Part shown: piece by piece, positions 944-17,667 of the stretch
Numbering within the stretch: position 1 is the first letter of the stretch
Layout: the number at the start of each line of letters is the position of its first letter
NCBI GenBank assembly: GCA_024710445.1
Contig: JANJUT010000138.1
Span: forward strand, 1-19,618
Length of the DNA: 19,618 bases
Reading direction: 5' to 3'
Origin: Thiobacillus sp.
GTDB taxonomy: Bacteria > Pseudomonadota > Gammaproteobacteria > Burkholderiales > Thiobacillaceae
Position numbers and translations under genes: made by a program
The notes under the pieces: model-generated
What the model was told of the DNA's origin: nothing
Database searches by the model: none
The model's input: the letters and a program-made list of their open reading frames with translations, nothing else

Positions 944-1050
944 CCAGATACCGCTCGCCATGTCGGAAAAATACCTGCAAGCCTGTATGGGCGTCTATCC
1001 GTGAGCCACTTAGCATTCACTGTCAGGGTGATTCTGAGGATTTGCCTAAC

Positions 1051-1791
1051 ATGCTGAGCACGCTCATTGTCGAAGACAATGCCACCTATCGCCAGTCGCT
1101 GCATCACCTGCTGGAGAAAAGGTTTCCATCGATGCAGATTGCAGAAGCAGCGGATGGGGAGGAGGCCATGCGTCAGGCGCTCTCCAGGCGTTTCGACTTC
1201 ATCTTCATGGATATCAGACTGCCGCACGGGAATGGGCTTAGCCTCACCAAAGCCATCAAGGAGGTTTTTGCTGGCTCGCTGATTTGCATTGTCACCAACC
1301 ATGCCATTTTCGAATATCGGGAAGCCGCTTTTCAGAATGGCGCGGACCATTTCATCGTGAAGGGGGAGTCGACTGAAGCCGAGATCGGCGATCTGGTCGA
1401 GTCCTGGCTGCGGACACGCTTCATTTCATTGATTATCGTGAGCGATTCGCTTTCCAGGCAGCAGCTCGCCATGCTGCTCTCTGTCCACTGGCCCGTCATG
1501 ATCGTGGCGGAGGCCGTTGATGCGGCAACCGGACTCGGGCACACAGCAGCGCTGAAACCGGATCTGGTGTTGCTCGAACTGGGTTTGCCGGACGCCCTCG
1601 ATCTGGTTCGGGACATCCGTGTCCGGAGCCCTCAAGCGACCGTCATCGGCATGACAGATGACTCCTTGCCTGCTTGCAGGGCAACGGCAATCAACTGCGG
1701 TGTGGACCATTGTGCGCCACTCGGCCCCATGGGGTATACCGAACTGGTGACCTACCTGGATTCCATCAAGCGGGGTCGCAGGCTTCACTGA
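1051..1791 (+). CDS. Response regulator with two receiver domains, second degenerate, no output domain
   Basis: The protein has 246 residues. GAGGA at 1036-1040 sits 10 bases before ATG 1051, which I prefer over the TTG at 1042. Residues 1-120 form a complete receiver: acidic pair E8-D9, phosphoacceptor Asp54 in FMDIRLP, Thr82 and Lys104 in FIVKG. Residues 124-246 form a second receiver-like domain (LIIVSDS; LVLLELGLP) in which the phosphoacceptor position is Glu176 and the conserved lysine is absent (HCAPLGP). A constitutively phosphorylated-like or purely structural role is therefore possible. No DNA-binding, GGDEF, EAL or other output domain is present, so it should act by protein contact or in a phosphorelay. 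No histidine kinase is in the window. It lies upstream of the MCO cluster in the same direction, but a 359-base gap separates them, so co-regulation is only a guess. Confidence 0.85.
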   Translation: MLSTLIVEDNATYRQSLHHLLEKRFPSMQIAEAADGEEAMRQALSRRFDFIFMDIRLPHGNGLSLTKAIKEVFAGSLICIVTNHAIFEYREAAFQNGADHFIVKGESTEAEIGDLVESWLRTRFISLIIVSDSLSRQQLAMLLSVHWPVMIVAEAVDAATGLGHTAALKPDLVLLELGLPDALDLVRDIRVRSPQATVIGMTDDSLPACRATAINCGVDHCAPLGPMGYTELVTYLDSIKRGRRLH

Positions 1792-1843
1792 TACGGTTCC
1801 CGAGCCTCATGGAATGCAATCTCAATCCGGTCTTCTGCCAGTT

Positions 1844-1862
1844 TTGAAGATGTCTTGAAGAT
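1844..1862 (+). repeat. Direct repeat TTGAAGAT x2 with 11-bp period
   Basis: TTGAAGAT occurs at 1844-1851 and again at 1855-1862, so the copies start 11 bases apart, about one helical turn. This spacing is typical of tandem binding sites for winged-helix response regulators (OmpR/PhoB type). It lies about 290 bases before the first MCO start. The regulator encoded just upstream has no DNA-binding domain, so it cannot be the direct binder. Confidence 0.35.
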
Positions 1863-1916
1863 AATGGCAGCATTCGTCCGGCAGACCGGGCCGACACGGT
1901 TCGCATGCTGAACAAA

Positions 1917-1933
1917 AGCCGGAGACGCCGGCT
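1917..1933. other. Small GC-rich hairpin, possible weak terminator
   Basis: AGCCGG (1917-1922), loop AGACG, CCGGCT (1928-1933) form a perfect 6-bp stem. On the plus strand no T-run follows. Four A residues precede it, so a T-run would follow only on the minus strand, where no gene needs it. It may attenuate read-through from the response regulator gene. Confidence 0.3.
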
Positions 1934-2139
1934 GCATTTCCAGTTGTTCTGATCTGCCCACCTGGTTTTCCTACAGTAAACACCCCCCGTCATATGCAGG
2001 GTCGATGGCACGTGAGTGCGGGTTTCGCCCCCGTGTTGTTTTGTCGCAGATTCTCTAAGCTTGGTTCTCGAAAGCACGTTCCCGTATGAGCGTGATGGCC
2101 AGCACGGATTTTTCAGCTGCGTTGATGCAATGCAAGCAG

Positions 2140-2146
2140 AGGAGGG
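2140..2146 (+). promoter_or_regulatory. Ribosome binding site that fixes the start of the first MCO gene
   Basis: AGGAGGG ends 4 bases before ATG 2151. This supports starting the protein at MKADILRP, followed by a signal peptide, rather than at upstream in-frame codons back to 2016. Confidence 0.8.
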
Positions 2147-2150
2147 CGTT

Positions 2151-3455
2151 ATGAAAGCCGATATTTTGAGACCATTCAGCGGTGTGTCCATGACGGATCA
2201 ATCATTGCTTTCGTTGCTCATGGCCAGCGGGTTGATTGCGGCAGCGATCTCAATATTGTTGGTGTCCCTCCCCGCGGGCGCGCAGCAGAGCAGCATCAAC
2301 GTGCAGTGCCCTGAAACCACATTGCTGCATCCGACAGCAGGAGCCGGCGGCATCAAGTGCGGCCACCTGGTGGCGGGCGATGGCATGGTGACGATGGCTG
2401 ACGATTATCAGGGCACTGGCGCTGGCAAGCCGCTCTATATTTTCAGCTTCGCCAAGCTTCCAGGGGGCGATCCGCTCCCGGGCGGCGCCCAGCCCAATCC
2501 CGGTCAGGTCATGGCGCAGGGCATGCTGGCCGCCAACGCACCGGCGCCGACGATCTCGGTGGACGAAGATGACGAGTTGTTTCTTTCACTGACCAACGTC
2601 GGCATGGCCATGCGGCCCGACCTGTTCGATCCGCACACTGTCCACTGGCACGGCTTCCCGGAGGCTGCAGCGATTTTCGATGGTGTCCCAGATGCCTCGA
2701 TTTCGATCGCCATGGGGGCGACGCTGACCTATTACTACCAGGCCAAGGATGCTGGCACCTACATGTACCACTGTCACGTCGAGGCTGCCGAACACATGCA
2801 GATGGGGATGCTCGGCAATCTCTACGTACGTCCGCGACAGAATAAACTTCCAGCGGGAACCGTGCTGGGAACATGGATCCATGCGGCCGGCAATACCTAC
2901 GCCTACAACGATGGCGACGGCTCGACCCGCTACGACGTCGAGTATCCGATCCAGATCGGCTCCTTCGACCCTGACTTCCACGATGCCAGCTTCAATGTCC
3001 AGCCGCTGCCGTTTGCCGGCATGCGCGACCGCTATTTCCTGCTGAACGGGCGCGGCTACCCCGACACCGCCAACCCGGCCGTGCTCACCACGGTAGACCC
3101 GCTCGGCAATACGCAGGCCTCGCAGCCCGTATCCAGTCTGATCACGGCGGCACCTGGCCAGCGCATCCTGCTGCGCATCTCCAACCTGAGCGTGACCCAG
3201 TTCTACACGCTGGGTACCAATGGCCTGCCAATGGAAGTGGTTGGGCTCGACGCGCGGCTGCTGCGCGACGGTGCGGGCAATAACCTGTACTACAAGACCA
3301 ACTCGCTCACCCTTGGCGGGGGTCAGTCGGCCGACGTGATCGTCACTGCCCCGGCGACGGCAGGCACCTACTTCGTCTACACCAAAAACCTCGACCGGCT
3401 GGTCAATGACGCCGAAAACTTCGGCGGCATGATGACCGAGATTCGGGTCAATTAA
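2151..3455 (+). CDS. Multicopper oxidase-like protein A: type 1 copper and half of the trinuclear cluster in domain 1
   Basis: The protein has 434 residues with a Sec signal peptide (core at about 15-35, cleavage after LPAGA near 43), so it is periplasmic or exported. The first cupredoxin domain (about 85-230) contains HTVHWHG (His162, His165, His167) and YHCH-x5-H-x4-M (His207-Cys208-His209, His215, Met220). His162, Cys208, His215 and Met220 can form a type 1 copper site; the remaining histidines are two of the four His-X-His pairs of a trinuclear cluster. The HCH-to-His spacing is 5, against the usual 3. The second domain (about 250-434) has the fold signature (VSSLITAAPGQRILLRISN) but no His-X-His and no Cys ligand. 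At about 435 residues it resembles two-domain MCOs with type 1 copper in domain 1, but it cannot complete the trinuclear cluster alone. The next gene starts 11 bases later and supplies the missing ligands. The substrate is unknown. Confidence 0.88.
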   Translation: MKADILRPFSGVSMTDQSLLSLLMASGLIAAAISILLVSLPAGAQQSSINVQCPETTLLHPTAGAGGIKCGHLVAGDGMVTMADDYQGTGAGKPLYIFSFAKLPGGDPLPGGAQPNPGQVMAQGMLAANAPAPTISVDEDDELFLSLTNVGMAMRPDLFDPHTVHWHGFPEAAAIFDGVPDASISIAMGATLTYYYQAKDAGTYMYHCHVEAAEHMQMGMLGNLYVRPRQNKLPAGTVLGTWIHAAGNTYAYNDGDGSTRYDVEYPIQIGSFDPDFHDASFNVQPLPFAGMRDRYFLLNGRGYPDTANPAVLTTVDPLGNTQASQPVSSLITAAPGQRILLRISNLSVTQFYTLGTNGLPMEVVGLDARLLRDGAGNNLYYKTNSLTLGGGQSADVIVTAPATAGTYFVYTKNLDRLVNDAENFGGMMTEIRVN

Positions 3456-3459
3456 GGAG
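3454..3459 (+). promoter_or_regulatory. Ribosome binding site of the second MCO gene
   Basis: AAGGAG overlaps the TAA stop of the preceding gene and ends 7 bases before ATG 3467. This favours that ATG over the in-frame GTG at 3461 and implies translational coupling. Confidence 0.75.
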
Positions 3460-3466
3460 AGTGGCA

Positions 3467-4786
3467 ATGACCAGATCTGAACCCAACAAATTCAGCGCAG
3501 GTGTCGCCAGGTGGTTCTCGGTCGCCGCTGCGCTTGCGGTGCTGCTGGTGCCTGCAGTTGCGCGCGCCGCAATCACTGGCGAGACTGGAACCAGTTTCTC
3601 CCTCACGGCAAGAGCGGGCTATATCTCGATCGCCGATGGCGGATCTGTCTACTCGTGGGGGTACGCCACTGGCTCGCAGATGCAACTGCCGGGCCCGACC
3701 TTGATCGTGACCGCCGGGCAAACCGTGACGGTGACGCTCGCCAACAATCTGCCTGCAGCCGCGGGCAACGTCTCGATCGTGTTCCCGGGGCACCAGGTCA
3801 CCGCAATGCCCAACACCGGCGTCCCGGGTCTGCTGACTCAGGAAGCCCAGCCTGGTGGAACGGTCACATACACCTTCACGGCTGGCGAACCCGGCACCTA
3901 CCAGTATCACAGTGGCACGCGGCCAGACCTGCAGGTTGAAATGGGTCTCTATGGCGCGCTTATCGTGCGGCCGTCGGCAGCGGCTACCGGATGTGTCGAT
4001 GCTGCCCATACTGCCTATAACCACGCGGCAACCTGCTTTGACCGCGAGTACCTGTACCTGCTGAGCGAAGTGGATCTCGATGTCCATCGCGCGGCGGAGC
4101 AGCAGGCATCGGGCCCAGGTCCGATCGACGTCGGCGATGGTCCGTTTCACCCGGAGTACTGGCTGCTCAATGGGCGCGCAGCGCCGGACACCATGGCCGC
4201 AGCGGGCGATCCGCTGCTGCCGTCGCAACCCTACAACGCGATGACGCGCATGCATCCAGGCGAGCGCCTGCTGTTACGGGTGGTGGGGGCGGGGCGCGAC
4301 ATGCATCCCTTCCACACTCATGGCAACCATGTACGGGTGCTGGCCCGCGACGGCCGATTGCTGTTGAGCGCCACCGACGCGAACCAGCTCGCGGGACCGC
4401 TGCTGTTCACCATTCCATCGGTGCCGGGCGGAACGGTCGACGCGATTTTCGAGTGGACCGGCAAGGATCTGGGCTGGGATATCTACGGTCACGCGCCGAC
4501 CGATGCGCTGGAGCCGAACGAGTGGGCCGCCGACCACGGCAGGCCGATTCCCGTCAACCTGCCCGACCTGAGTGTGCTGGCATTCGGCGGCTTCTATAGC
4601 GGTAGTCCTTACCTCGGCGCGCTTGGCAGCCTGCCCCCAGGCGAGGGCGGGCTCAACCCGGATGCCGGGTATGCCTACATGTGGCACTCGCACACCGAGC
4701 GCGAGATGGTGAATAACGACGTATTCCCCGGCGGGATGATGACCATGCTGATCATCGAAGCGCCCGGTGTGCTGATCGTCGAATGA
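3467..4786 (+). CDS. Multicopper oxidase-like protein B: complementary trinuclear-cluster ligands in domain 2, no type 1 cysteine
   Basis: The protein has 439 residues with a signal peptide (AALAVLLVPAVARA, cleavage near residue 34). The first cupredoxin domain (about 40-170) keeps the MCO strands (QLPGPTLIVTAGQTVTVTL; EPGTYQYHSG) but lacks copper ligands: where protein A has YHCH, this one has Y147-H148-S149-G150. The last domain has HPFHTHGNH (His280, 283, 285, 288) and MWHSHTERE (His407-Ser408-His409), that is, two His-X-His pairs of a trinuclear cluster. Ser408 replaces the type 1 Cys, and the downstream type 1 His is Glu413. Alone it can bind neither type 1 copper nor a full cluster; paired with protein A it would complete both. 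It is paralogous to the N-terminal part of the giant protein that follows. It may instead be a copper-binding non-enzyme. Confidence 0.87.
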   Translation: MTRSEPNKFSAGVARWFSVAAALAVLLVPAVARAAITGETGTSFSLTARAGYISIADGGSVYSWGYATGSQMQLPGPTLIVTAGQTVTVTLANNLPAAAGNVSIVFPGHQVTAMPNTGVPGLLTQEAQPGGTVTYTFTAGEPGTYQYHSGTRPDLQVEMGLYGALIVRPSAAATGCVDAAHTAYNHAATCFDREYLYLLSEVDLDVHRAAEQQASGPGPIDVGDGPFHPEYWLLNGRAAPDTMAAAGDPLLPSQPYNAMTRMHPGERLLLRVVGAGRDMHPFHTHGNHVRVLARDGRLLLSATDANQLAGPLLFTIPSVPGGTVDAIFEWTGKDLGWDIYGHAPTDALEPNEWAADHGRPIPVNLPDLSVLAFGGFYSGSPYLGALGSLPPGEGGLNPDAGYAYMWHSHTEREMVNNDVFPGGMMTMLIIEAPGVLIVE

Positions 4787-4803
4787 AGTGAGGGAGAAGA
4801 ACT

Positions 4804-7800
4804 ATGAAATCAACATTCCTGAAGACTATCCTGCGGACCACCAGATTAGCGGTCGTGAGCGTTTTCCTCAGCGCGGGTATCGCATCCGCCGCCGACGTCT
4901 ACCTCCAGGCGCAGACCTTCGATAAGTCGTTGCCAGACGGTATCGGTGGCACCGTCACAGTCCCGATGTGGGGCTTCCAATGGTGCAGGGAAGGTTTTGT
5001 AAATTGCGGTCAGGCTGCAGCAAGTCAAGACGCGCCGGGTCCGCAGCTCAATCCCCACACGATCAATTTCGGCATCCAAGCGGATGGATCTGGCGCAACA
5101 CTAAGCGATCCGGGCAATCCGGGCGTCACGATCAGCGGCCTGCTGGGCAATGGGAGCCCCGCTGCCAGTGTCTTTCGCACCAGACTGGGAATTGGCGTCA
5201 ATAACGCAAACGTCGGTACCAATCAAACAGCTGTGTTCACTTACGCGAGCACTGTCATTCCACAGGGTTTTTCGGTCTGGTCCAGCAATGGCAGTATGGG
5301 CACCGTTGCGGTGACCCTCGATGGCAACCCCGTCACCGTTACTCCGGTGCAGGGACCGCTGGCGTCGTTGCCGACCACGCACGAGAATGCGGGCGGCATC
5401 AACGGTGCCTGGTTCACTTACCACATCACAGGAGCCGCGAGCGGCACCGTGCTCGCGATCAAGAATTTGGGTGCAGCCTTGCGTGTCAAGGACATCACGG
5501 CGGTTCCTGCGGTAGCGTATGCCGCTGGGACCGGTCCCGGCCTCACGGTTCACCTCCGGAACGTACTGCGTACGCCGACCTCAATCGTGATTCCTGGCCA
5601 GGCAGGCGGCGGCAACCCGGTCATGGCTACTGACTCGCGAGGAAGACCGCGCGTGCAGTCGTTCACAAACGAGACGGCGCGCTCAGGCGACCAGCAGGTC
5701 TACACCTTCAGCAACTTGCGTCCCGGCACCTACCTTTATCAGAGTGGCACCCAGCCATCGATCCAGGTGCCCATGGGCCTCTACGGGGCGCTGGTCGTCC
5801 CGACGCCCGGCGTCGCCGCGTGTACAACGACAGGTCAGCAAGCTGCCTACGGCGCCAACAGCTGCTACAATGCCGACGCCACACTGCTGTTCAGTGAAAT
5901 CGACCCGCTGCAGAACCAGCGCGCCGCCGCAGCATTAGCCGCGTCGCTGGGCGCGCCGGGGAACACGTGCGTCTCGCTCGCCGACTACGTCACGAACGCG
6001 ACGATCGGCTTCCCCTGTACGGTGGAGTACAACCCGGTCTACTTCCTGGTGAACGGCGAACCCTACGACAAGATGACGGCCCCGGCCCCACTGCAGATTG
6101 CAGCACCGGGAAGCGTACTGCTGCGCCTGCTCAACGCCGGCCTGCGCTCTCACACGCCAACCATCGTTGGCCTCGATATGGGGCAGGTCGCAGAGGACGG
6201 CAATGCTTATCCTGGCCTCACCAGGCAACAGGGTGAGACGCTCCTGCCCGCGAGCAAGACACTCGATATCCTGGTCACCATGCCTGCCGGAAACGCAACC
6301 TACACGCTGTTCGACCGCATGCCTGCCAGCAGCCACGACGAGCTGCCGGCCGGCGGGATGATCGCAAAACTGCAAATTGGCACCGGTTCCACGCCGCCTG
6401 TGCCGCCGTCCATCTATGCCGTCAACGACACCTATTCGGTCCCCGAGAACGCGGCGCCGTACGCCGCCACTCCTGGGGTGCTCGCCAACGACGTCGGGCT
6501 TGCGGGCGCGACGGTATCCGTGGTGACCGGACCGGCCAACGGCACGCTCGTGCTGAATGCTGACGGTACCTTCAACTACACACCGAATGCAGCCTTCTCG
6601 GGTAGCGATGGCTTCACCTACAGTGCCAGCCTGGGTGGGAACAGCTACCCCGCCCAAGCCATGCTCAATGTGACTTCCGTGAACGACGCCCCTGTGGCAG
6701 CCGACGACGGACCCTACGTCAATACCATCGGGACGACCATCACGGTCGATGCGGCCCACGGTGTCCTGGGCAACGACTCGGATCCGGACGGCGATACGCT
6801 GACGGCAGTGATTGACGGAACCGCCCCGCCCGGGCTCACACTGAATGGCGATGGCTCGTTTACCTACACGGGTGGCATCGCCACCACGTTCTCCTACCAC
6901 GCTACCGACGGTACGCTGTCAAGCGTCTCCGTGATGGTGACGTTGACCGTCAATCCGGTCGCCAACATCACCCTGAACGTACAGGACCCCGCCGGCACCC
7001 CGGTGACGCAATACCGCTGGCTGGTCGAAGAGGACACCACGTGGCAGCCGGACCCGAACCTCGTGCCCCCGCCTAAAGACACGCTGGCGACCAACTTCCA
7101 CCGCAGCTACATGCCGGTCGTGGCCCAGGGCTGTGTGGGCACCGGCAGCGTACAGAATGTGGGCGGTGGGGTAACCATCCCCTACTGTGACCCTGAAACA
7201 CCGTTCAACCAGCTCGCGCTCGACCCGACCAAGCATTATTACGTTTCGATCCTGCCCCATGACGCGGTGGACGAAGACAATACTGGCTATCGTGTCGGTC
7301 ACACGGTAGGTGGCACCCGCATCCCGCCCAGCACCGCCAATAAGGCGCTGACCGTTAACGTGAACAATGAGCCGCTGCCCTACGCGCAGATCAGCATCTT
7401 TGTGTTCGAGGACAACGCCCCGACCAATGCCGCTGTTTCAGGCGGCGAGGTGGGTCTTGGCGGCTTCCAGATCACCCTCGAGGACGCCGGCGGACGCTAC
7501 GGTATCTCAGCCGGTGTGATGAGCCAGGACGCTGACGGCAATCCGCTGACGAATGCCCTCGGTGGACCTCCGTGGAACTGCTTTGGCGCTTCGACGCCCC
7601 TCCCGGGAGTCATCCTCAGCTGCCCTGACACGCCGGCAAACCAGGTGGCGGGTATCGTGGGCCAGGTGCTCATCAAGAACCTCTTCCCGGGCAAGTACGG
7701 CATCACCGCCACCCCCCCGCTGGGAAGTGCTACGCATTGGCTGCAGACTACGACCATCGAAGGCACGCGGGTGACCGATGCCTGGGTGAAGGCGGGTGAA

Positions 7801-10800
7801 CCACCCTTCTTCTCGGAGTTCGGCCCTGTCAGCTGGCACGTGTTTGTAGGCTTCGTGAGTCCCGAGCGGACGGCGGCGGCCAACCCGGGCGGTCCAAACA
7901 CCGTCACTGGAAATGTCACCAACCTTCACATGGCGCGCCCACCCGACCAGGCGCTGTGGGACAGCACTACTTATGATGCGCTCGCGCACACCCGAGCCTG
8001 GGTCGGTCTCAACTCCGTGGGCGGCATTGGCCCTAATTTCGCCGCCGTGCAAGCCACGCTCAACCCTGACGGCACCGCCAGCTTCGAGATCCCCAACGTA
8101 CCTAACGGTGAGTACCAACTCGTGGTCTGGGACAGCTATCTCGACCAGATCATCGCCTATCGTGGGGTGTCGGTATCCGGTGGGACGGCGGGGACAGTAG
8201 TGGCCCTTGGCAACGTGCCCGTCTTTAATTGGTTCTCGCGGATGGAGCATAACGTGTTCCTGGATACCAACCAGAACGGCGTGCGCGACCCTGGCGAGGC
8301 GCCGCTTCCGGAACAGGCGATCAACCTGCGCTGGCGCGACGGCACCGTCTACCAGTCCTTTCCCACGGATACCGAGGGGTTCGTTCCCTTCGACCAGATG
8401 TTCCCGTTCTTCCACTGGCAGGTGGCAGAGGTGGATTACACGCGCTTCAAGGCGACCGGTGTCACCGTAACCGTTGACGGCGGCGGTGACGTGACCGGGA
8501 CCGGTTTCATCCTCAACCCGCAGGTCCAGGCCGACGGTACGACGACGCGCACCGAGACTGGACCCGTCCTGACCCAGGGCGTGCAGGGCTTCCTCGGCCA
8601 GACCAGCGTCTTTGACTGGGGCAAGGCTCCCTACGCAGCCGGTGAGAACGGCGGTATTTCGGGAATTGTTTATTACGCTTCGACCCGCGCCGAGAGCGAC
8701 CCGCGGCTCGCTGTCGGTGAGCCTTGGGAACCGGGCATCCCGCGCGTCAAGGTGCGCCTCTACCGCGAGGTGGCCAAGGATGGCGGCGGGACGGCCCTCG
8801 CCCTGGTGCAGGAAGTCCAGACCGACAGCTGGGATGACGCTCTGCCGACGGAGTGTCCCGGCCAGGACCCCAGCGATCCGATCGTCGATCCCACACTCGG
8901 GGCTGTTTCGCCCGTGGACAAGTGCTACGACGGCCTGCGCAACTTCAACCAGGTTCGTCCTGCGGTGTTTGACGGCGGCTACGCATTCAATAACATTCCG
9001 GCAGGCAAGTACGTAGTGGAGGTCGTGCCTCCGCCCGGCTACGATTTCCTCAAGGAGGAAGACGTCAACGTCAGCTTCGGCGACGGCTACGCCTCGACGT
9101 TCGTAACGTTGCCAGGTGGTGCAGTGGTCAATATCGTGCCCGATCCGGCAACCATCATAGCGGCGCAGGCTCCCGAGCCCGGGCTCGCCCAGCCGCCGTG
9201 CGTGGGGACTGTGCGTGAGGTGCCCCCGATCCTGAGCCTGTTCCCGTCGGCGGCGGCCGACGCACCCTTCGCGGGTGCCCTGCGGCCGCTGTGCGACCGC
9301 AAGCAGGTCGTCCTTTCCGATCAGGGGCAGGCGGCAGCTGACTTTTTCCTCTTCACCGGTGCACCGATCGCCGGCCACTTCGCCGGCATGATACTTGACG
9401 ACCTGGCTCAGGAGTTCAGCCCCTACTCGCCGCAGTTCGGTGAGAAGTGGGCACCGCCCTTCGTGCCCATCTCGGTGCGTGATCACCTGGGCCGCGAGAT
9501 CTCGCGCCTCTACTCCGACCAGTGGGGCCGCATGAACGCGCTCGTGCCATCGACCTTCACAGCGAACATGCCGTCGCCGAGCGGCTACTCGCCGGCGATG
9601 CACATGACCTGCATGAACGACCCGGGACCGATCGTGGATACACGAGCGGGTTCGCCTACCGAGGGTCAGACGATCATCGATCCGCAGTACAACCCCGCGT
9701 ACAGCAACTTCTGCTATACGTTCCAGTACATGCCGGGGACGACCACCTATCTGGACACACCGGTGCTGCCGGTGTCGGCCTTCGCCTCTGGATACAACGC
9801 ACCGTATTGCGCACCCGACCAAGGGACGCCGGTGATCCGGCAGGTGGACGGCGCCGGCCTCAACACGGGGCCCCTGGTGGCCCCGGCCGGGACGCTCACC
9901 ATCCGCTCCCGCGGTGTGGCAGTTCCGGTTCCGAATCCGGCCTACGAGGGACCGCTCGCGACCGGTTCCGCCGCGCAGACGACCATCCTGCGTGACTTCG
10001 GGTTCGGAACCCAGGGACCGGGCAGCAGCGTCACCATCGGTGGCGTATCGCTCACCATCACGAGCTGGGATGCCGACACGATTACTGCATCGCTGCCGGC
10101 AGGGGTTTCGACTGGTGAGTTGGTCGTTACCCGCGACAATGGCAACGCCACCGAGCACGCTGTGACGGTTACCGTTTCCGCCAATGAGATGCCGATCCGC
10201 GTGCCGGCGGACCAGCCGACCATCCAGGCGGCGATCGATGCCGCTTCGCCGGGCGCACTGATTCTGGTTGCCCCGGGTGCATACAACGAGTCGGTCATCA
10301 TGTGGAAGCCCGTGCGCCTGCAGGGTGCCGGCGCCGGCTCGACCTTCATCAATGCCGTCAAACGTCCGGTCGAGTCGCTCGTGGCATGGCGTACCAAGAT
10401 GGACTGCCTGTTCGGAATTGGCGTGGGCTGCACCCAGGTGGTGAACGCTCTGCCCAGCCAGCCCGATGGCGCGGCTGGATTCAACACCGAGGAAGGTGCG
10501 GCCATCACGGTCGTGGGCATCTACGATCCAGGTACGGGAACATCGCCGGCAAACAGTTTCCTCCGCCGGGGCCCGTCGCGCATCGACGGCTTCTCGATCA
10601 CTGGTGGCGACGTCGGGGGCGGCATCTTTGTCAACGGCTATGCTGACCGTCTCGAGATCGCCAACAATCACGTGTTTGGCAACAACGGCTCGTATCACGG
10701 CGGTATCCGTATCGGCCGGCCGTTCCTCGAGCTGACCGCAGACGATCAGAATCCCCCTAATGGCCGCTTCGAATTCAACACCAGGGTGAATATCCACCAC

Positions 10801-12690
10801 AACGCCATTACCCAGAACGGCGGTCTGGGCGGAGCCGGCGGCGGTCTGTCGATCGCCACGGGCACCGACGGGTACAACGTGAGCCACAACTTCGTGTGTG
10901 GGAATTTCACGACCGGAGACGGCGGCGGCATCGGCCACCTCGGCCTGAGCGATGGAGGCGTGATTGCGAACAACCGCATCGTTTTTAACCAGACATTCAA
11001 TCAAGCGACAACAGTGTCTGGCGGCGGGCTGTTTATTGCAGGCGAGCCGGCTGTAGCCGGCCTTACCTTCGGCGCGGGCTCGGTCACCGTGGACGCCAAC
11101 CTGATTCAGGGCAACCACGCCGGCGCGGGACACGGCGGCGGAATTCGTACTCAGTTTGTCAACGGCCTCGACATTAGCAACGCAAACGTCAACAGTTGGC
11201 ACAACGTGACGCTCACCAATAACATGATCGTCAACAACGTGGCCGGTTGGTCGGGCGCAGGGGTGTCGCTGCAGGACACGGTGCGCAGCCTTATCGCCAA
11301 CAACACGATCGTGCACAATGACAGCACGGCGACGGTCGCCGCGACGTTCTCCACCGGGAACCCGAACCTCTCGGTGAGCCAGCCAGCGGGTATCGCCTCG
11401 GAGCCCCACAGCCCGGCGCTGACTGACGCGATTCCCAATCCGCCGCAGTTCAACGCCGTGCGGGACTTCTCGAACCCGAGGCTGTCGAACAACATCGTGT
11501 GGCAGAACCGCTCCTTCCACTACGAAGTGGACACGGGCGTGGTACCGGCCACGGCCGGGCTCGTGCCGAGTCTCAGCCAGACCACAGTGGGCGAGTGCCT
11601 CCCGGGTGCGACCTACTGGGATCTCGGCGTTCTCGGTGGCGGCTTTACGCTCAGCCCGGTGTCCTCGGTTTTGACCGACACCACCGGCTACGATGCCAGT
11701 AACACCTCGGGCGACCCCAACCTGGTGAAGCCCTACTGCAACGGCGGTCGAACCCTCGTGGCCATCCCCGGGCCGATGGCAGCACTGCCCGCGCTGGACG
11801 AGGGGGGCAACGCCTGGATTGACGTGCGCTTTGGTCCGCTGGTGACTGCCTGGAACGCCAATGATCCGAGCGGGCCGGCCTGGAATCACCACATCGGTGC
11901 CGGCTCGTCCGGGTTGGACAATGGCATCGCCACGGATGCCCCGGACCACGACTTCGACAATGAAGCGCGGCCTCAGGGAGGTAGTGTGGATCGCGGCGCC
12001 GACGAGGTGATGCAGGCCGCGCCAACGCCTGGCACGGTAGCGTTCAGCCCGTCGGGCGCGTTCGGGAACGTTGTATTCCTGACGACAGAAACGCGGACGA
12101 TCACCGCGACGGTTTCGGGTGGTCCGGTCACGTTCGTCTCCTCGACCAGCCCGGCGGCACCTTTCGTGAAGACCGCCGACACCTGCTCGGGCACGACGGT
12201 GACTGCAGGCGGCACCTGCACGTTTACCGTGACCTATACGCAGCCGCTCCTCCCCGTTACCAACAACGGCTCGTTTACGGTTACCAGCAACGCCACGGGT
12301 AGCCCGCAGACCGTGAACCTTTCCGGAACCGGTGTACGGCAGGTGGCGTTCACGTCGGCCACCGCTCCGGGAACGCTCTTAAGCCTTCCTGGCGGCGGGA
12401 GTCTGGCTTTCGGCAATCAGAGCGGGCTGGTCACAAGCACTTTGACCGTGACGGTTGAAGGAAGTGCGCCGGTGACCTTCGGGACCTTGACTGTCACGGG
12501 TATTCTCAACACCGCATATAGCAAAGGCGCCGACACCTGTTCCGGGGCCACGCTATCGGGTGGCGGCACCTGTACGGTCATCGTCAGGTTTAACGCACCT
12601 GCGAACAACAGCTTGCGTACAGGAACGTTGATGGCTCCCCACAACGGAACCAGCAGTGTGACGCAGACACTGGTTCTCACCGGCCGATGA
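4804..12690 (+). CDS. Giant secreted multidomain protein: ligand-less MCO module, cadherin-like, SdrD-B-like, IPT/TIG-like, beta-helix and C-terminal Ig-like repeats
   Basis: The product has 2628 residues, starting at ATG 4804 with GGGAG about 7 bases upstream. The signal peptide ends near ASA/AD (about 29). Residues 30-530 are an MCO-type cupredoxin module homologous to protein B: PGTYLYQSG (Y310 onward) matches PGTYQYHSG, and HPFHTHGNH is replaced around 449-460 by SHTPTIVGLDMG, so copper ligands are lost. About 157 residues (80-237) interrupt its first cupredoxin domain. Residues 538-720 are two cadherin-like/VCBS-type repeats (GVLANDVG, GVLGNDSDPDGDTL). Residues 720-1700 carry carboxypeptidase-regulatory/SdrD-B-like modules, including calcium-loop-like DTNQNGVRDPGE at 1154-1165. 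An IPT/TIG-like domain is at 1728-1793. A right-handed beta-helix runs from about 1798 (QAAIDAASPGALILVAPGAY) to 2396, ending in a choice-of-anchor-like VDRGADEV. Two 118-residue-spaced Ig-like repeats end the chain. No sortase, PEP-CTERM or autotransporter signal is visible, so the export route is unclear. It is probably an extracellular adhesin or scaffold. Confidence 0.88.
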   Translation: MKSTFLKTILRTTRLAVVSVFLSAGIASAADVYLQAQTFDKSLPDGIGGTVTVPMWGFQWCREGFVNCGQAAASQDAPGPQLNPHTINFGIQADGSGATLSDPGNPGVTISGLLGNGSPAASVFRTRLGIGVNNANVGTNQTAVFTYASTVIPQGFSVWSSNGSMGTVAVTLDGNPVTVTPVQGPLASLPTTHENAGGINGAWFTYHITGAASGTVLAIKNLGAALRVKDITAVPAVAYAAGTGPGLTVHLRNVLRTPTSIVIPGQAGGGNPVMATDSRGRPRVQSFTNETARSGDQQVYTFSNLRPGTYLYQSGTQPSIQVPMGLYGALVVPTPGVAACTTTGQQAAYGANSCYNADATLLFSEIDPLQNQRAAAALAASLGAPGNTCVSLADYVTNATIGFPCTVEYNPVYFLVNGEPYDKMTAPAPLQIAAPGSVLLRLLNAGLRSHTPTIVGLDMGQVAEDGNAYPGLTRQQGETLLPASKTLDILVTMPAGNATYTLFDRMPASSHDELPAGGMIAKLQIGTGSTPPVPPSIYAVNDTYSVPENAAPYAATPGVLANDVGLAGATVSVVTGPANGTLVLNADGTFNYTPNAAFSGSDGFTYSASLGGNSYPAQAMLNVTSVNDAPVAADDGPYVNTIGTTITVDAAHGVLGNDSDPDGDTLTAVIDGTAPPGLTLNGDGSFTYTGGIATTFSYHATDGTLSSVSVMVTLTVNPVANITLNVQDPAGTPVTQYRWLVEEDTTWQPDPNLVPPPKDTLATNFHRSYMPVVAQGCVGTGSVQNVGGGVTIPYCDPETPFNQLALDPTKHYYVSILPHDAVDEDNTGYRVGHTVGGTRIPPSTANKALTVNVNNEPLPYAQISIFVFEDNAPTNAAVSGGEVGLGGFQITLEDAGGRYGISAGVMSQDADGNPLTNALGGPPWNCFGASTPLPGVILSCPDTPANQVAGIVGQVLIKNLFPGKYGITATPPLGSATHWLQTTTIEGTRVTDAWVKAGEPPFFSEFGPVSWHVFVGFVSPERTAAANPGGPNTVTGNVTNLHMARPPDQALWDSTTYDALAHTRAWVGLNSVGGIGPNFAAVQATLNPDGTASFEIPNVPNGEYQLVVWDSYLDQIIAYRGVSVSGGTAGTVVALGNVPVFNWFSRMEHNVFLDTNQNGVRDPGEAPLPEQAINLRWRDGTVYQSFPTDTEGFVPFDQMFPFFHWQVAEVDYTRFKATGVTVTVDGGGDVTGTGFILNPQVQADGTTTRTETGPVLTQGVQGFLGQTSVFDWGKAPYAAGENGGISGIVYYASTRAESDPRLAVGEPWEPGIPRVKVRLYREVAKDGGGTALALVQEVQTDSWDDALPTECPGQDPSDPIVDPTLGAVSPVDKCYDGLRNFNQVRPAVFDGGYAFNNIPAGKYVVEVVPPPGYDFLKEEDVNVSFGDGYASTFVTLPGGAVVNIVPDPATIIAAQAPEPGLAQPPCVGTVREVPPILSLFPSAAADAPFAGALRPLCDRKQVVLSDQGQAAADFFLFTGAPIAGHFAGMILDDLAQEFSPYSPQFGEKWAPPFVPISVRDHLGREISRLYSDQWGRMNALVPSTFTANMPSPSGYSPAMHMTCMNDPGPIVDTRAGSPTEGQTIIDPQYNPAYSNFCYTFQYMPGTTTYLDTPVLPVSAFASGYNAPYCAPDQGTPVIRQVDGAGLNTGPLVAPAGTLTIRSRGVAVPVPNPAYEGPLATGSAAQTTILRDFGFGTQGPGSSVTIGGVSLTITSWDADTITASLPAGVSTGELVVTRDNGNATEHAVTVTVSANEMPIRVPADQPTIQAAIDAASPGALILVAPGAYNESVIMWKPVRLQGAGAGSTFINAVKRPVESLVAWRTKMDCLFGIGVGCTQVVNALPSQPDGAAGFNTEEGAAITVVGIYDPGTGTSPANSFLRRGPSRIDGFSITGGDVGGGIFVNGYADRLEIANNHVFGNNGSYHGGIRIGRPFLELTADDQNPPNGRFEFNTRVNIHHNAITQNGGLGGAGGGLSIATGTDGYNVSHNFVCGNFTTGDGGGIGHLGLSDGGVIANNRIVFNQTFNQATTVSGGGLFIAGEPAVAGLTFGAGSVTVDANLIQGNHAGAGHGGGIRTQFVNGLDISNANVNSWHNVTLTNNMIVNNVAGWSGAGVSLQDTVRSLIANNTIVHNDSTATVAATFSTGNPNLSVSQPAGIASEPHSPALTDAIPNPPQFNAVRDFSNPRLSNNIVWQNRSFHYEVDTGVVPATAGLVPSLSQTTVGECLPGATYWDLGVLGGGFTLSPVSSVLTDTTGYDASNTSGDPNLVKPYCNGGRTLVAIPGPMAALPALDEGGNAWIDVRFGPLVTAWNANDPSGPAWNHHIGAGSSGLDNGIATDAPDHDFDNEARPQGGSVDRGADEVMQAAPTPGTVAFSPSGAFGNVVFLTTETRTITATVSGGPVTFVSSTSPAAPFVKTADTCSGTTVTAGGTCTFTVTYTQPLLPVTNNGSFTVTSNATGSPQTVNLSGTGVRQVAFTSATAPGTLLSLPGGGSLAFGNQSGLVTSTLTVTVEGSAPVTFGTLTVTGILNTAYSKGADTCSGATLSGGGTCTVIVRFNAPANNSLRTGTLMAPHNGTSSVTQTLVLTGR
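12025..12687 (+). repeat. Two C-terminal Ig-like repeats of the giant protein
   Basis: The end of the giant gene encodes two related modules (about 12025-12330 and 12337-12687). The match is clearest in TADTCSGTTVTAGGTCTFTV and GADTCSGATLSGGGTCTVIV, whose DNA lies 354 bases apart (118 residues). Each has a Cys pair that could form a disulfide. They resemble the HYDIN/ASPM-type or choice-of-anchor-D-type beta-sandwich domains common at the ends of secreted bacterial proteins. Confidence 0.7.
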
Positions 12691-12703
12691 TCGAGAACCT
12701 TTT

Positions 12704-13234
12704 GTGAACTCGATACTGAACTCGTATCAGCAGCTTGCTCAGCCGGGGCGCGGGTCACCCGCAAGTCTTTTCGCGGGCGGCCTCGCCCTGATCGGTGTCT
12801 TTGGACTCGCACCCGCGGCATGGGCGTCCGAGGGGCAGGCCGTGGATCGTGTTGCCTCGATCGCTCCGTCCGAGCAGGGGCACCACCCGCGCGAGAACAC
12901 ATTGATGAAGCGGCAGTGGGGGATCGAGCCGATGTACGTGCGTCAGACCGCAGCCGGCTACATGCTGGAGTTTCGCTACAGGGTGCTGGACGCCGAGAAG
13001 GCGAAGCCGCTGTTCGAGCGCCGTACCAAGCCGCTGTTGACCCATGCCGAGTCGGGAACCAGGCTGATCGTACCCACGCCGGCCAAGACCGGCGCGCTGC
13101 GCAACTCGAATCCGCCGCTGGCCGGGCACACGTACTGGATGTATTTCGCCAACCCCGGAAAACTGGTGAAGCCGGGCGAGCACGTGAACATCGAGATCGG
13201 CGCGTTCCGCCTTGAAGGGGCTGTCGTCAAGTAG
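12704..13234 (+). CDS. Secreted protein of unknown function in the MCO operon
   Basis: I do not recognise this 176-residue protein. It starts with GTG, 13 bases after the giant gene stops. A signal peptide is clear: hydrophobic SLFAGGLALIGVFGL, then APAAWA/SEG with likely cleavage near residue 42. The mature part is about 134 residues, has no cysteines, and is rich in basic residues. An HHPRENTLMKRQWGIEP stretch follows a short linker; the C-terminal half (THAESGTRLIVPTPAKTG; HTYWMYFANPGKLVKPGEHV) looks like a beta-sandwich. No transmembrane segment follows the signal peptide, so it should be soluble in the periplasm or outside. Its place between the giant protein and the chaperone genes suggests a structural or assembly partner, which is inference from position only. 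Confidence 0.75.
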   Translation: MNSILNSYQQLAQPGRGSPASLFAGGLALIGVFGLAPAAWASEGQAVDRVASIAPSEQGHHPRENTLMKRQWGIEPMYVRQTAAGYMLEFRYRVLDAEKAKPLFERRTKPLLTHAESGTRLIVPTPAKTGALRNSNPPLAGHTYWMYFANPGKLVKPGEHVNIEIGAFRLEGAVVK

Positions 13235-13246
13235 AAGCTGACCATG

Positions 13247-13251
13247 AGGAG
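13247..13251 (+). promoter_or_regulatory. Ribosome binding site that selects ATG 13259
   Basis: AGGAG lies 7 bases before ATG 13259. The in-frame ATG at 13244 would place this site inside the coding sequence and has no good site of its own, so the shorter start is preferred. Confidence 0.65.
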
Positions 13252-13258
13252 AATCAGG

Positions 13259-14068
13259 ATGAATATCATGCCGAGCGAGGGCTCGCACCACAGCGATGCC
13301 AGACTAACCAACCTGTTGAGAACCATGATCACGGCAACAGCGTTTGCCTTGTGTCTGCCAGCCTTGGGGTTCGCCGAGACGGTGGACGAACTGGTGGCCA
13401 AAAACACCGCCGCACGCGGCGGCGCCGCGGCCTGGCAGGCCGTGTCTTCGCTCCAGCTCAGCGGTCGCATGGATGTGGGCAAGGGGATGAGCGTGCCCTA
13501 CGTGCTCGAGCAGAAACGGCCCGACAAGATGCGCCTGGAGTTTGTGTTCGACGGCGAGACCTCCGTGCAGACCTTCGACGGCAAGGCGGGCTGGAAGCTT
13601 GCACCATTCCTTGGACGCACCACCGCCGAGCCGATGACTGAAGCGGAACTGAGCGTGGCTGCGGATACGGCCGACCTCTACGGGCTGTTGTTCGACTACG
13701 CCAGGCGGGGGCACAAGGTGGAACTGCTTGGAAGCGAGCTGGTGCTGGGGCAGGATGCGTTCAAGCTCAAAGTGACCTTGCCTGGCGGGTCAGTGCGCTG
13801 GGTGTATCTCGACGCCAAGAGCGGGCTCGAAGTCAAGGTCGAGGCGCTGCGCAGGCTGCGCAAGCGCGATCGGGTCGTCGAGACTTTCTATCATGACTGG
13901 CAGGCCACGGACGGTCTGCTGATCGCACATCGTCTGGAAACGCGCACCGAGGGGGAGAAGAACCTTCACCCCTTCACCGTGCAGAGCGTACGGGTCAATC
14001 CGCCGCTTGCTGACGCACGCTTCGCGATGCCGGTCGCGGTCCCGACTATCGCCAGAAATGGGAAATGA
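13259..14068 (+). CDS. LolA-like outer-membrane-lipoprotein-sorting superfamily periplasmic protein
   Basis: The protein has 269 residues from ATG 13259. A hydrophobic segment (MITATAFALCLPALGFA) after a 22-residue leader looks like a signal peptide, cleaved before ETVDELVAKNTAARGG. The mature domain has the LolA/LolB-like half-barrel pattern: helix DELVAKNTAARGGAAAW, strands LQLSGRMDVG, VPYVLEQKRPDKMRLEFVF, VQTFDGKAGWKLAPF, then VRWVYLDAKSGLEVKVEA and a final FTVQSVRVNPPL. This superfamily binds acyl chains or acts as a periplasmic carrier; true LolA is usually about 200 residues and encoded elsewhere, so this is a dedicated paralogue. Its stop overlaps the SCO gene start (ATGA), so the two are translationally coupled. 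A job in export or assembly of the cluster's proteins is inferred from context. Confidence 0.72.
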   Translation: MNIMPSEGSHHSDARLTNLLRTMITATAFALCLPALGFAETVDELVAKNTAARGGAAAWQAVSSLQLSGRMDVGKGMSVPYVLEQKRPDKMRLEFVFDGETSVQTFDGKAGWKLAPFLGRTTAEPMTEAELSVAADTADLYGLLFDYARRGHKVELLGSELVLGQDAFKLKVTLPGGSVRWVYLDAKSGLEVKVEALRRLRKRDRVVETFYHDWQATDGLLIAHRLETRTEGEKNLHPFTVQSVRVNPPLADARFAMPVAVPTIARNGK

Positions 14069-14739
14069 TCATGACACACTCGTTAATGCTCAAAGTCAGC
14101 TACTTCCTGATTATGGCCGGCAGTATCGCGACGGCTTCAGTTATGGCGGCAGATGCGCTGATGCCCGTCATGGCCACGGAGCATCACCACGACCACCACG
14201 CTGCGGCAATGGATCACAGCCAGCACGCGGCGATGATGGCCAAACCCAGTCCTTTCCAGGTTTCACAGCATCCGTACACGCTGCCCGAATTGACGCTGCG
14301 CGACCAGGCGGGCCGTGCGGTCCCGATGAGCGAGTTGCAGGAGGCATCCGGGCCGCTGGCGGTTAATTTCATCTTCACGACCTGCACCACGATCTGCCCG
14401 GTGATGACGGCCACCTTTTCCCAGATGATTCGGGAGCTGGGTCCTGATGCCGGGCGTATCAATCTGGTGTCGATCACCATCGACCCCGAGCACGATACCC
14501 CGGCGGTATTGGCCAAATACGCCGAGCGCTTCGAGGTACCGTCGAACTGGCGCTTCCTCACCGGCAGCCCTGGCGACGTGGAGCGCGTGTTGCGTGCCTT
14601 CGATGCCTGGAGTGGTTCGATCACGAGTCACCGGCCGATCACGCTGGTGCGTCGGCAGGACGATGCCAACTGGGTGCGGCTCGAGGGCTTGGGTAGCGCG
14701 TCCGAGCTCGCCGAGCAGGCGCGAGCCGTGATCCACTGA
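14065..14739 (+). CDS. SCO1/SenC/PrrC-family copper chaperone or thiol-disulfide protein
   Basis: The protein has 224 residues with a signal peptide ending near SVMA/AD (about 30). A His/Met-rich stretch follows at residues about 38-58 (HHHDHHAAAMDHSQH), a likely extra copper-binding tail. The thioredoxin-like SCO domain has FTTCTTICPVM (Cys107-x3-Cys111) and a downstream His189 in SITSHRPITLV; this Cys-Cys-His set binds Cu(I)/Cu(II) in SCO proteins. The conserved segment ITIDPEHDTPAVLAKYAERF is present. SCO proteins normally deliver copper to the CuA site of cytochrome oxidase; here the gene sits in an MCO operon with no oxidase subunit nearby, so it is more likely to load or reduce copper sites of the MCO-like proteins. 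The start ATG overlaps the previous stop by 4 bases; a second ATG at 14071 is possible. Confidence 0.92.
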   Translation: MIMTHSLMLKVSYFLIMAGSIATASVMAADALMPVMATEHHHDHHAAAMDHSQHAAMMAKPSPFQVSQHPYTLPELTLRDQAGRAVPMSELQEASGPLAVNFIFTTCTTICPVMTATFSQMIRELGPDAGRINLVSITIDPEHDTPAVLAKYAERFEVPSNWRFLTGSPGDVERVLRAFDAWSGSITSHRPITLVRRQDDANWVRLEGLGSASELAEQARAVIH

Positions 14740-14743
14740 GCGG

Positions 14744-16375
14744 GTGAGCGCGGAATCTTTATCGAGATTCGGTTTGCTGCGCAGGAGCGTGGCCGCAGCG
14801 TTATTCGCATTGATGTTCGCCGGTACGGCGGTCGCCCAGCAGTCGGCCATTAATGCGTCCGTGCATGATCTGGTTGCTGCAGGCAGGTTGCTCTACAGTG
14901 AGGGCCGGATGGCGTCCGGCCAGCCGGTCAAGGCCCTGGTACAGGGCGATGTGCCGGTACTTGGTACGCAGGTGGCCTGTCAGAGTTGCCACGGGCGCAG
15001 CGGCATGGGTGCGATCGAGGGTGGCCGCATACCCGCTGCGATCGCCGGGCCGCTGCTGTTTGCCGCCGACGCGCAGCGCCGCCGTCCGGCATACACCGAC
15101 AGTACACTGGCGCGTGCGCTTCGCGAGGGCATCGACTCCGCCGGCCGGCCGATCGATCCGTTGATGCCGCGCTATCAATTCGATGCGCGCGACCTCGCGG
15201 CACTTACCGCCTACCTGCACCAGCTTGGCGCGGTACCGTCGCCGGGGGTCACCCCCGACAGTCTGCGTATTGCGACGATCATTGCCGGAGAGGTTGCCAG
15301 CGATGCGGAACGCGCGATGCTCGACGTACTCAAAACCTTCGTCGCCGCTCGCAACCGCAGTGGACCGCAGCGTCTGCGGGGCGGGCACTTTCCCGGCCAG
15401 TTCAAGGAAACGTACCGTGAGTGGTCGCTCGAGGTATGGCGGCTCGGCGGCCCACCCGAAACCTGGCGCGCGCAACTCGATGCGCATTACCGCGAGCGCC
15501 CTCCGTTTGCACTGGTTGGCGGCCTTGGCTCGCGGTCGTGGCAGCCGATCCACGATTTTTGCGAAGCCGAGCAGATACCCTGCGTATTGCCCGACATCGA
15601 TCTGCCGCCGGCTGACGATGGCGTCTATTCGCTGTACTACTCTCGAGGTGTGCGGCTGGAGGCCGAGATCATTGCCGCCACACTCGCGGCCGAGGGACGC
15701 CATGCCAACGTCGTTGGCGTAGTGGAGGGCAGAGCAGGCTCTGCCACCGGAGAAGCCGCCACTGCACTTGCGCGGGCCCTGGAAAGGCGTGGCGGGCACA
15801 TGCGCCTGCTGGATGCGCGACCTGAGTCCGGCGCAGAGGCGGTCCTTGCACGCGTGCTTGGGGAACCGACCAGCGAGGAACCGGCAAGTGCGATCGTCCT
15901 GTGGCTGAGGGCCGAAGGGGTGCGGCGGCTGGCGGCTCAGTTGAGGACTCAAAACAAGAAGGTGCCGCCGCTGTATCTCTCCTCGACGCTGCTCGGCGCA
16001 AAGTGGGACGAATTACCTGCCGCCGTACAGAAACGCGCGTGGGTGGTGCACCTCACTGCTCTGCCGGGTGAGCCCGATTCGGCGCTGCAGCGCTTCCGCG
16101 CCTGGGCGAGTGCACGTGGCCTGCAGATTCGCGAAGAACGGCACCAGGCGCTCGCCTACTTTGCCATTCTCGCTTTTGCCGAGGGTACGAAACACACGTC
16201 AATCTTTGCCTCGCGTGACTACTTCATGGACCTGCTTGAGCATGCCTCTACGCTCACCCCCTATCTGCCGCTGTATCGCCGTGCGGGCATGACACCTGGT
16301 CAGCGGGTGCTCTCGCGCGGTGGCTATATGGTCGATTTATCCGGGCGCCACGATCCCGTGTGGCAGGTGCCATGA
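14744..16375 (+). CDS. Cytochrome c domain fused to a periplasmic substrate-binding protein
   Basis: The protein has 543 residues, with a GTG start 4 bases after the SCO stop. The signal peptide (AAALFALMFAGTAVAQ) is cleaved near residue 32. A class I-like cytochrome c domain spans about 40-165, with CQSCH (Cys79, Cys82, His83) for covalent heme and Met141 in PLMPRYQFDARDLAALTAYL as the probable sixth ligand. Residues about 175-540 form a type I periplasmic-binding fold (LRIATIIAGE; FALVGGLGSRSWQPIHDFCE; VVGVVEGRAGSATGEAATAL; PPLYLSSTLLGAKWDELP), similar to branched-chain amino acid-type binding proteins. No ABC permease or ATPase is encoded nearby, so transport is unlikely; sensing or redox transfer fits better. 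Its TGA overlaps the ATG of the diguanylate cyclase (ATGA), which suggests a signalling pair. The ligand cannot be predicted. Confidence 0.88.
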   Translation: MSAESLSRFGLLRRSVAAALFALMFAGTAVAQQSAINASVHDLVAAGRLLYSEGRMASGQPVKALVQGDVPVLGTQVACQSCHGRSGMGAIEGGRIPAAIAGPLLFAADAQRRRPAYTDSTLARALREGIDSAGRPIDPLMPRYQFDARDLAALTAYLHQLGAVPSPGVTPDSLRIATIIAGEVASDAERAMLDVLKTFVAARNRSGPQRLRGGHFPGQFKETYREWSLEVWRLGGPPETWRAQLDAHYRERPPFALVGGLGSRSWQPIHDFCEAEQIPCVLPDIDLPPADDGVYSLYYSRGVRLEAEIIAATLAAEGRHANVVGVVEGRAGSATGEAATALARALERRGGHMRLLDARPESGAEAVLARVLGEPTSEEPASAIVLWLRAEGVRRLAAQLRTQNKKVPPLYLSSTLLGAKWDELPAAVQKRAWVVHLTALPGEPDSALQRFRAWASARGLQIREERHQALAYFAILAFAEGTKHTSIFASRDYFMDLLEHASTLTPYLPLYRRAGMTPGQRVLSRGGYMVDLSGRHDPVWQVP

Positions 16376-17610: not shown

Positions 17611-17629
17611 AACTGCCAAGCTGGAGGTT

Positions 17630-17652
17630 GAGCCCACATAGGCCTGTGGCTC
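17630..17652. terminator. Inverted repeat between convergent genes, possible bidirectional terminator
   Basis: GAGCCCACA (17630-17638), loop TAGGCC, TGTGGCTC (17645-17652) form an 8-bp stem with one bulged C. It lies between the diguanylate cyclase stop and the stop of the convergent Rieske gene. No T-run follows on either strand, so intrinsic termination is uncertain. Confidence 0.4.
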
Positions 17653-17667
17653 ACGATACAACAACAT

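Follow-up and report, generated by a model that had tools for sequence, protein, structure and literature searches.

Gene organization and copper ligands of the locus

The window analyzed here is a stretch of 19,618 nucleotides of Thiobacillus sp. (GenBank assembly GCA_024710445.1, contig JANJUT010000138.1, positions 1 to 19,618). Three neighboring genes in this window, encoding proteins A, B, and C, appear from their sequences to specify one copper-dependent, O2-reducing enzyme whose active site is shared by two chains. The features of the locus are listed below.

2151..3455, forward strand: protein A, 434 aa, starting with ATG; first cupredoxin domain (D1) with a complete type 1 site and two His-X-His (HxH) pairs, second domain (D2) without ligands
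2634..2651, forward strand: ligands of A, H162 (type 1) and H165 and H167 (trinuclear)
2769..2810, forward strand: ligands of A, H207, C208, H209, H215, and M220 (trinuclear pair and type 1)
3467..4786, forward strand: protein B, 439 aa, ATG at 3467; D1 without ligand pairs, D2 with two HxH pairs
4304..4321, forward strand: residues of B, H280 (in place of the lost type 1 His) and H283 and H285 (trinuclear)
4685..4693, forward strand: residues of B, H407, S408, and H409 (trinuclear pair, with Ser at the Cys position)
4804..6423, forward strand: N-terminal part of protein C, ca. 540 aa, with a signal-like N-terminus and a third cupredoxin pair without ligand pairs
6424..12690, forward strand: scaffold part of C, with Big_9, cadherin-like, SdrD_B, and SpaA-like domains
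12704..13234, forward strand: small protein, 176 aa, of no known family
13244..14068, forward strand: 274-aa protein without a Pfam or NCBIfam match above cut-off
14065..14739, forward strand: SCO1/SenC protein with a CTTIC motif and, by eye, a His-rich N-terminus
14744..16375, forward strand: MofC-like cytochrome c protein with one CQSCH motif, named for its likeness to the published description of MofC and not from a sequence alignment to MofC

The ORFs of A and B were both intact in the window. Pfam matched multicopper oxidase (MCO) domains in both proteins, and Pfam and profile matches gave two cupredoxin domains per chain. Translation placed H162, H165, H167, H207, C208, H209, H215, and M220 of A and H283, H285, H407, S408, and H409 of B exactly where the initial annotation had put them. 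D1 of A thus holds the type 1 set (H162, C208, H215, and M220) and the trinuclear pairs H165/H167 and H207/H209, and D2 of A is free of ligand pairs, as had been claimed. The parallel claim that D1 of B lacks ligands held for pairs, but this domain retains a single His (H148) and the old type 1 Met. The ligand set of an MCO (type 1 His/Cys/His/Met plus eight His in four HxH pairs) was present in A and B jointly and in neither singly, in both the 82-row counts and the 75-protein alignment described below, in agreement with the proposal that the four pairs make up the eight His of one trinuclear cluster.

The ATG of B lies 11 nt past the stop codon of A, with AAGGAG overlapping that stop, in keeping with the annotated spacing for coupled translation. 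A signal peptide had been assigned to each of the two proteins. By eye, both carry a signal-like N-terminus, and a rough hydrophobicity test that excluded A rows longer than 1100 aa found such an N-terminus in 70 of 76 rows of A, all 82 rows of B, and 78 of 81 rows of C.

Distribution and conservation of A, B, and C

We scanned genome contigs with an alignment of B and examined the best 80 of the 159 matches obtained. A and B were separate neighboring ORFs in all of these best 80 loci, and C followed B in 79 of them; the exception (L067) stops at the contig end. The initial annotation had suggested a search for single-chain homologs in which A and B are fused, and none was seen among the best 80 of the 159 loci. 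In eight relatives, A, B, and a third two-cupredoxin ORF were consecutive in every case. A of another genome of the same genus (G047) shares 98% identity with A of the window.

Nine phyla were assigned over the best 80 of the 159 loci, many of which are in metagenome-assembled genomes: Pseudomonadota (32), Myxococcota (17), Thermodesulfobacteriota (11), Acidobacteriota and Nitrospirota (5 each), Planctomycetota (2), and Bdellovibrionota, Chloroflexota, and Verrucomicrobiota (1 each), with 5 loci carrying no phylum. Because most source genomes are metagenome-assembled, the phylum labels found only once may be binning errors. The split-site arrangement is old and widespread.

Conservation was counted over 82 rows each of A and B (the window, L031–L110, and L112). 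The seven His and Cys ligands of A were present in 79 rows, the other three being incomplete rows with gaps, and position 220 was Met in 79 rows, Leu in one, and a gap in two. H280, H283, and H285 of B were found in all 82 rows, and H407/S408/H409 in 81, with one gap. The ligand pattern of A and B is not due to chance. E411 and E413 of B were, like H280 and S408, invariant where covered, and these four residues might constitute a re-used metal site.

A-type matches (E up to 1e-30) were found in 7 of 300 genomes sampled from the order, one of them being the genome of the window. B-type matches (6e-86 or better) occurred in the same 7 genomes, and the next B match was at 3e-23. In 100 genomes of relatives, full-length A was found in 9, and B adjoined it every time.

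Ligand alignment, phylogeny, and distance correlation

We aligned 75 proteins selected from the loci; for each of A, B, and C, the tree and the ligand table cover 19 hand-chosen loci of the 82. A had a complete D1 and no pair in D2 in 19 of 19. B had the four His of D2 in 19 of 19 and no pair in D1, where 14 proteins kept one His and 18 kept the Met. C was without pairs in 19 of 19. Two-domain MCOs of type C from the same genus carried the full ligand set in one chain (7 of 7). D1 of B and C preserved a remnant of the motif (YxYHSG or YxYQSG, followed by MGL), as expected of decayed paralogs.

In the tree, each family formed one group (support values: A, 100/100; B, 100/97; C, 100/100; type C, 100/100), and B and C together formed one side of a branch (99/94). 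Pairwise distances were correlated between the families over 74 of the 82 loci, with seven truncated or frameshifted rows and one locus without C left out: the coefficients were 0.746 for A-B, 0.630 for A-C, and 0.698 for B-C, and the maxima of 500 permutations were 0.138, 0.177, and 0.117, respectively.

A second split system

A second pair, B' and A', of ca. 340 aa each, was found as adjacent genes in five genomes (G666, G560, G572, G638, and Thiobacillus G032), and A' (E up to 1e-40) occurred in 4 of the 300 genomes of the order. Ligands were restricted to D1 in A' (six proteins) and to D2 in B' (five proteins), whose D1 retained the first type 1 His. In the tree, B' (100/98) and A' (97/70) were each one group. 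In the single-origin test, neither A plus A' (p 0.243) nor B plus B' (p 0.237) was rejected as one group. By eye, B' carried an N-terminal motif that we take to be of the twin-arginine type in 5 of 5 and A' lacked a signal in 5 of 5. The models of A, B, and C scored no third cupredoxin gene beside A'/B'. The next genes, judged by eye, presumably encode CusB- and CusA-like proteins at L156–L158 and a CusB-like protein at L019. In G701, a divergent pair was found with Sec-like N-termini on both chains.

Predicted structure and covariation

The profiles of A and B shared their two best solved relatives, the two-domain MCOs 3g5w and 2zwn, which we take to be of type C, and the HSH of B aligned with the HDH in D2 of 3g5w. 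In 3g5w and 2zwn, as in copies from the same genus (e.g., L012 and L022), the type 1 site is in D1 and each of D1 and D2 has two HxH pairs. By single sequence, the best solved match of A was again 3g5w, but that of B was to copper nitrite reductases and not to two-domain MCOs, which counts against the explanation that we prefer below.

Some relatives have A, B, and C in a single reading frame, interrupted by nothing but stops and short spacers, which allowed read-through chains to be folded. The AlphaFold model of the read-through A-B-C of L054 (1170 aa, 66 rows) had a pLDDT of 87.2 and a pTM of 0.88, with values below 50 confined to the two linkers and the C-terminus. That of the read-through A-B of L039, from another organism (821 aa, 48 rows), had a pLDDT of 88.3 and a pTM of 0.87, with values below 50 in the linker only. 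The pTM values suggest that the mutual placement of the chains is well defined in these models, in which the chains are joined covalently and the joining can itself favor contact.

For the A-B-C model, Foldseek ranked six-domain MCOs and coagulation factors V and VIII highest: factor V, ceruloplasmin, factor VIII, and MnxG were within the first 18, over the full length, with a TM of ca. 0.2 and an rmsd of 32–37 Å. The A-B model gave a TM by query of 0.25–0.30 against such six-domain proteins. Since the full-length matches have such a low TM, the chains seem not to follow the sequential order of ceruloplasmin in the model. A ring order of B-A-C, with B2 (D2 of B) adjoining A1 (D1 of A), would account for the low TM against ceruloplasmin-type proteins. 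We did not take the Foldseek results as proof of the A1-B2 contact, as those for Thermus laccases were mixed between the two models (TM by target 0.66–0.73 for A-B-C and 0.49–0.52 for A-B).

Covariation was measured as APC-corrected mutual information over the same 74 paired loci (62.7 effective sequences), with statistics that ignore phylogeny. Among the top 0.5% of inter-chain pairs, A1:B2 was enriched 1.54-fold, the highest of the 12 inter-chain domain pairs, followed by B1:C2 (1.18) and A1:C2 (1.12), down to A2:B1 (0.74); A2:C1, the third predicted interface, was not enriched (0.79). By enrichment, 585 of the 1000 column bootstraps and five of the six 70% samples had A1:B2 in first place. 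By mean score, the first place went to B1:C2 in 657 of the 1000 bootstraps and to A1:B2 in only 191. When mean scores were compared, the predicted set (A1:B2, B1:C2, and A2:C1) stood above the opposite ring order in every bootstrap; for enrichment this was so in 90%, the contrast being at or below zero in 10%. Covariation thus points weakly to an A1:B2 contact and is suggestive.

Comparison with known systems

According to the available text of PMC13151041, two-domain MCOs are trimers whose cluster takes its ligands from D1 of one monomer and D2 of the adjacent one, and type C denotes those whose N-terminal domain carries the type 1 copper. The initial annotation had held that in ordinary MCOs the eight His sit in one chain; this is untrue of two-domain MCOs, in which identical chains share the cluster between them (PMC13151041, as far as its text was available). 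Type C MCOs resemble A and B in having two cupredoxins per chain, and A in having the type 1 site in D1; their inter-chain cluster in a trimer, as described in the same available text, would be a further likeness. They differ in that one gene yields three equal active sites, whereas the window encodes three paralogs, with the D1 set in A, the D2 pairs in B, and no ligands in C, so that no single chain contains all D1 and D2 ligands.

Six-domain MCOs, such as ceruloplasmin and MnxG of the Mnx complex, are like A-B-C in having six cupredoxins with most sites lost. However, they are one chain, with the cluster between domains 1 and 6 in chordates or 2 and 3 in bacterial and algal proteins (PMC3600357, available portions), and the cupredoxin pairs studied here were in three separate ORFs in 79 of the best 80 of the 159 loci.

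A published cluster of similar make-up is Slit_1812–1818 of Sideroxydans lithotrophicus ES-1, for which the available parts of PMC12016527 and PMC5566968 describe three cupredoxin proteins, small proteins, SCO1, and a cytochrome. Taken from Slit_1818 downward, their gene order fits the window; this likeness is one of description and order and not of ES-1 sequence. In the available text of PMC12016527, late cultures on magnetite expressed Slit_1812–1818 at higher levels than did cultures on Fe(II)-citrate, and two cupredoxin proteins had MCO motifs and a larger third did not, their roles being given as unknown. The cluster has been published as a candidate for iron oxidation (PMC12016527 and PMC5566968, portions available), and the same portions of these accounts make no mention of complementary half-sites. 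MofA/OmpB clusters resemble the window in combining an MCO with a MofC-like cytochrome and, in some, SCO1, but have a single large MCO gene in place of A-B-C (PMC5566968, available text); they were set apart by description and not by sequence. In the text, without figures and supplements, of the openly licensed PMC literature, we found no description of a heteromeric or split trinuclear MCO site. The cluster as such is already in print for Sideroxydans, and the split site was not found described in that literature.

Proposed complex and alternative explanations

MCOs more commonly carry all motifs in a single chain, and this would favor an artefact, that is, a frameshift, pseudogene, or assembly error of such a single-chain protein. 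This reading is contradicted by the separate A and B ORFs in all of the best 80 of the 159 loci. B also has its own ribosome-binding site, both chains have signal-like N-termini, and each is a complete domain pair, all of which make an artefact exceedingly improbable. A and B might also be separate homo-oligomers without a shared cluster, A being a type 1 electron carrier and B a His-site metal binder; the available text of PMC12016527 assigns typical MCO motifs to each of two of the three Sideroxydans proteins and proposes no complex. However, A and B each lack the half kept by the other, both occurred in the same 7 of 300 genomes, and B adjoined full-length A in all 9 of the 100 relatives that had it. 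We regard separate homo-oligomers as improbable.

An active complex of A and B only (e.g., A2B or AB), with C as an independent scaffold or adhesin, has the distant A'/B' on its side, which shows the same ligand split with no third cupredoxin gene scored beside the pair. The model without C was, moreover, as confident (pTM 0.87) as that of A-B-C. Against this, C followed B in 79 of the best 80 of the 159 loci, consists of only ca. 330–350 aa, the cupredoxin pair alone, in several relatives, and forms one group in the tree, and two-domain MCOs are trimers (PMC13151041, available text). A complex without C is unlikely, although it deserves some weight.

The explanation that we prefer, and consider probable, is that A, B, and the N-terminal part of C are a paralogous two-cupredoxin heterotrimer with one active interface, A1-B2, which serves as a metal or mineral oxidase. 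Starting from the observed ligands, conservation, linkage, co-occurrence, and confident models, we propose that the three chains would form a ring of six domains, a specialized relative of the two-domain MCOs, in a presumed stoichiometry of one copy each. One of three interfaces would be live, with D1 of A giving the type 1 copper and four His and D2 of B the other four, and a copper-occupied trinuclear cluster would sit between A1 and B2. C would close the ring and, in the window, would also tether it to a large extracellular scaffold. A site at A1-B2 is favored by the complementary invariant half-sites, the strict pairing of A and B, the precedent of two-domain MCO trimers, the confident models, and the weak covariation. 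The A-B heteromer of the initial annotation, with its cluster at this interface, is thus supported computationally, but with three cupredoxin chains and not two. Given the ligands and established MCO biochemistry, electrons from the substrate would enter the type 1 copper of A1 and pass through C208 and H207/H209 to the cluster, which would reduce O2. A metal ion or a mineral is the most likely substrate, with Fe(II) as the best candidate; this putative role in metal oxidation is suggested by the available text of PMC12016527 and the neighbor genes, and the cytochrome may have a part in it.

We lean slightly toward a broader interpretation, in which these proteins represent a distinct MCO class occurring in at least nine phyla. 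Its cluster would obligatorily come from two gene products within an A-B-C heterotrimer of which one interface is live and two are dead. Bound to the scaffold, this complex would oxidize metals or minerals outside the cell, and A'/B' would be a distant branch accompanied by copper-efflux-like genes, in which the signal-less A' is exported through the Tat signal of B'. The evolution of MCOs is usually told as cupredoxin duplication and fusion into one chain, with homotrimers as an intermediate step. If the proposal is true, another outcome was a hetero-oligomer in which different paralogs retain different halves of one site. The proposal would also explain why two of the three magnetite-raised Sideroxydans proteins resemble MCOs and the third does not, and an assay of oxidase activity would require joint expression of the chains.

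Scaffold and neighboring genes

The third cupredoxin chain of the window is the N-terminal part of a 2628-aa protein, and in most relatives examined it is a separate ORF. A scaffold match was present in 71 of the 80 loci: it shared an ORF with C in 8 and with A in 6 (ORFs longer than 1500 aa, of which the scaffold is the N-terminal part in the case of A), and otherwise lay upstream of A. That one scaffold is fused to C in some loci and to A in others suggests that these two subunits work together. Counted at any position over the 80 loci, many of them incomplete, the 176-aa protein had a match in 64 and the 274-aa protein in 7. SCO1 is the likely copper loader. SCO1 and the MofC-like gene had matches in just 26 and 22 of the 80 loci, respectively, some of them incomplete, and this counts against our explanation. 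A MofC-like protein (E up to 1e-30) was found in 8 of the 300 genomes of the order, namely the 7 with A/B and G513. In G513, a 655-aa ORF with four HxH motifs sits between SCO1 and the MofC-like gene, and we infer that this single-chain MCO stands in place of A-B-C.

A second split oxidase pair

A second split two-domain multicopper oxidase (MCO) pair, distant from A and B and with the ligands divided likewise (A′, domain 1 only; B′, domain 2 only), was present in the order B′ to A′ at five loci:

L158:4343-6466, B′-A′ pair
L159:3490-5507, B′-A′ pair
L156:3787-5898, B′-A′ pair
L157:4369-6473, B′-A′ pair
L019:202-2349, B′-A′ pair

At these five loci, B′ alone appeared to bear a signal, Tat-like in kind, which suggests that A′ is carried out together with B′. 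Copper-efflux-like genes adjoined the pair in four of the five loci read. In a divergent pair, the N-termini of A′ and B′ alike were Sec-like:

L155:4708-6665, B′-A′ pair, divergent

Residues at or near the lost type 1 site and variation of the A-B-C cluster

His-280, Ser-408, Glu-411, and Glu-413 of B (window 3467-4786), located at or near its lost type 1 site, were invariant where covered, and these residues possibly form a re-used metal site.

The large scaffold varied in place: it shared an ORF with either C or A, or formed its own ORF upstream of A (window 4804-12690; L048, L056, L077, L083, L093, and L096; L025-L028). In the window, it is part of the C ORF (4804-12690). At one locus, a 655-aa ORF carries four HxH motifs, as if a single-chain MCO stood in place of A-B-C:

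L164:737-5107, SCO1, 655-aa ORF, and MofC-like cytochrome in a row

A-B-C was also found on a Cupriavidus metallidurans CH34 megaplasmid and in a Paraburkholderia plasmid record (L141 and L142); in L142, A-B-C is annotated as hypothetical proteins only. The cluster was preceded by a response regulator in the window and some relatives, with two receiver-domain matches and no further Pfam match:

window 1042-1791, response regulator upstream of the cluster
L025:918-1661, response regulator upstream of the cluster
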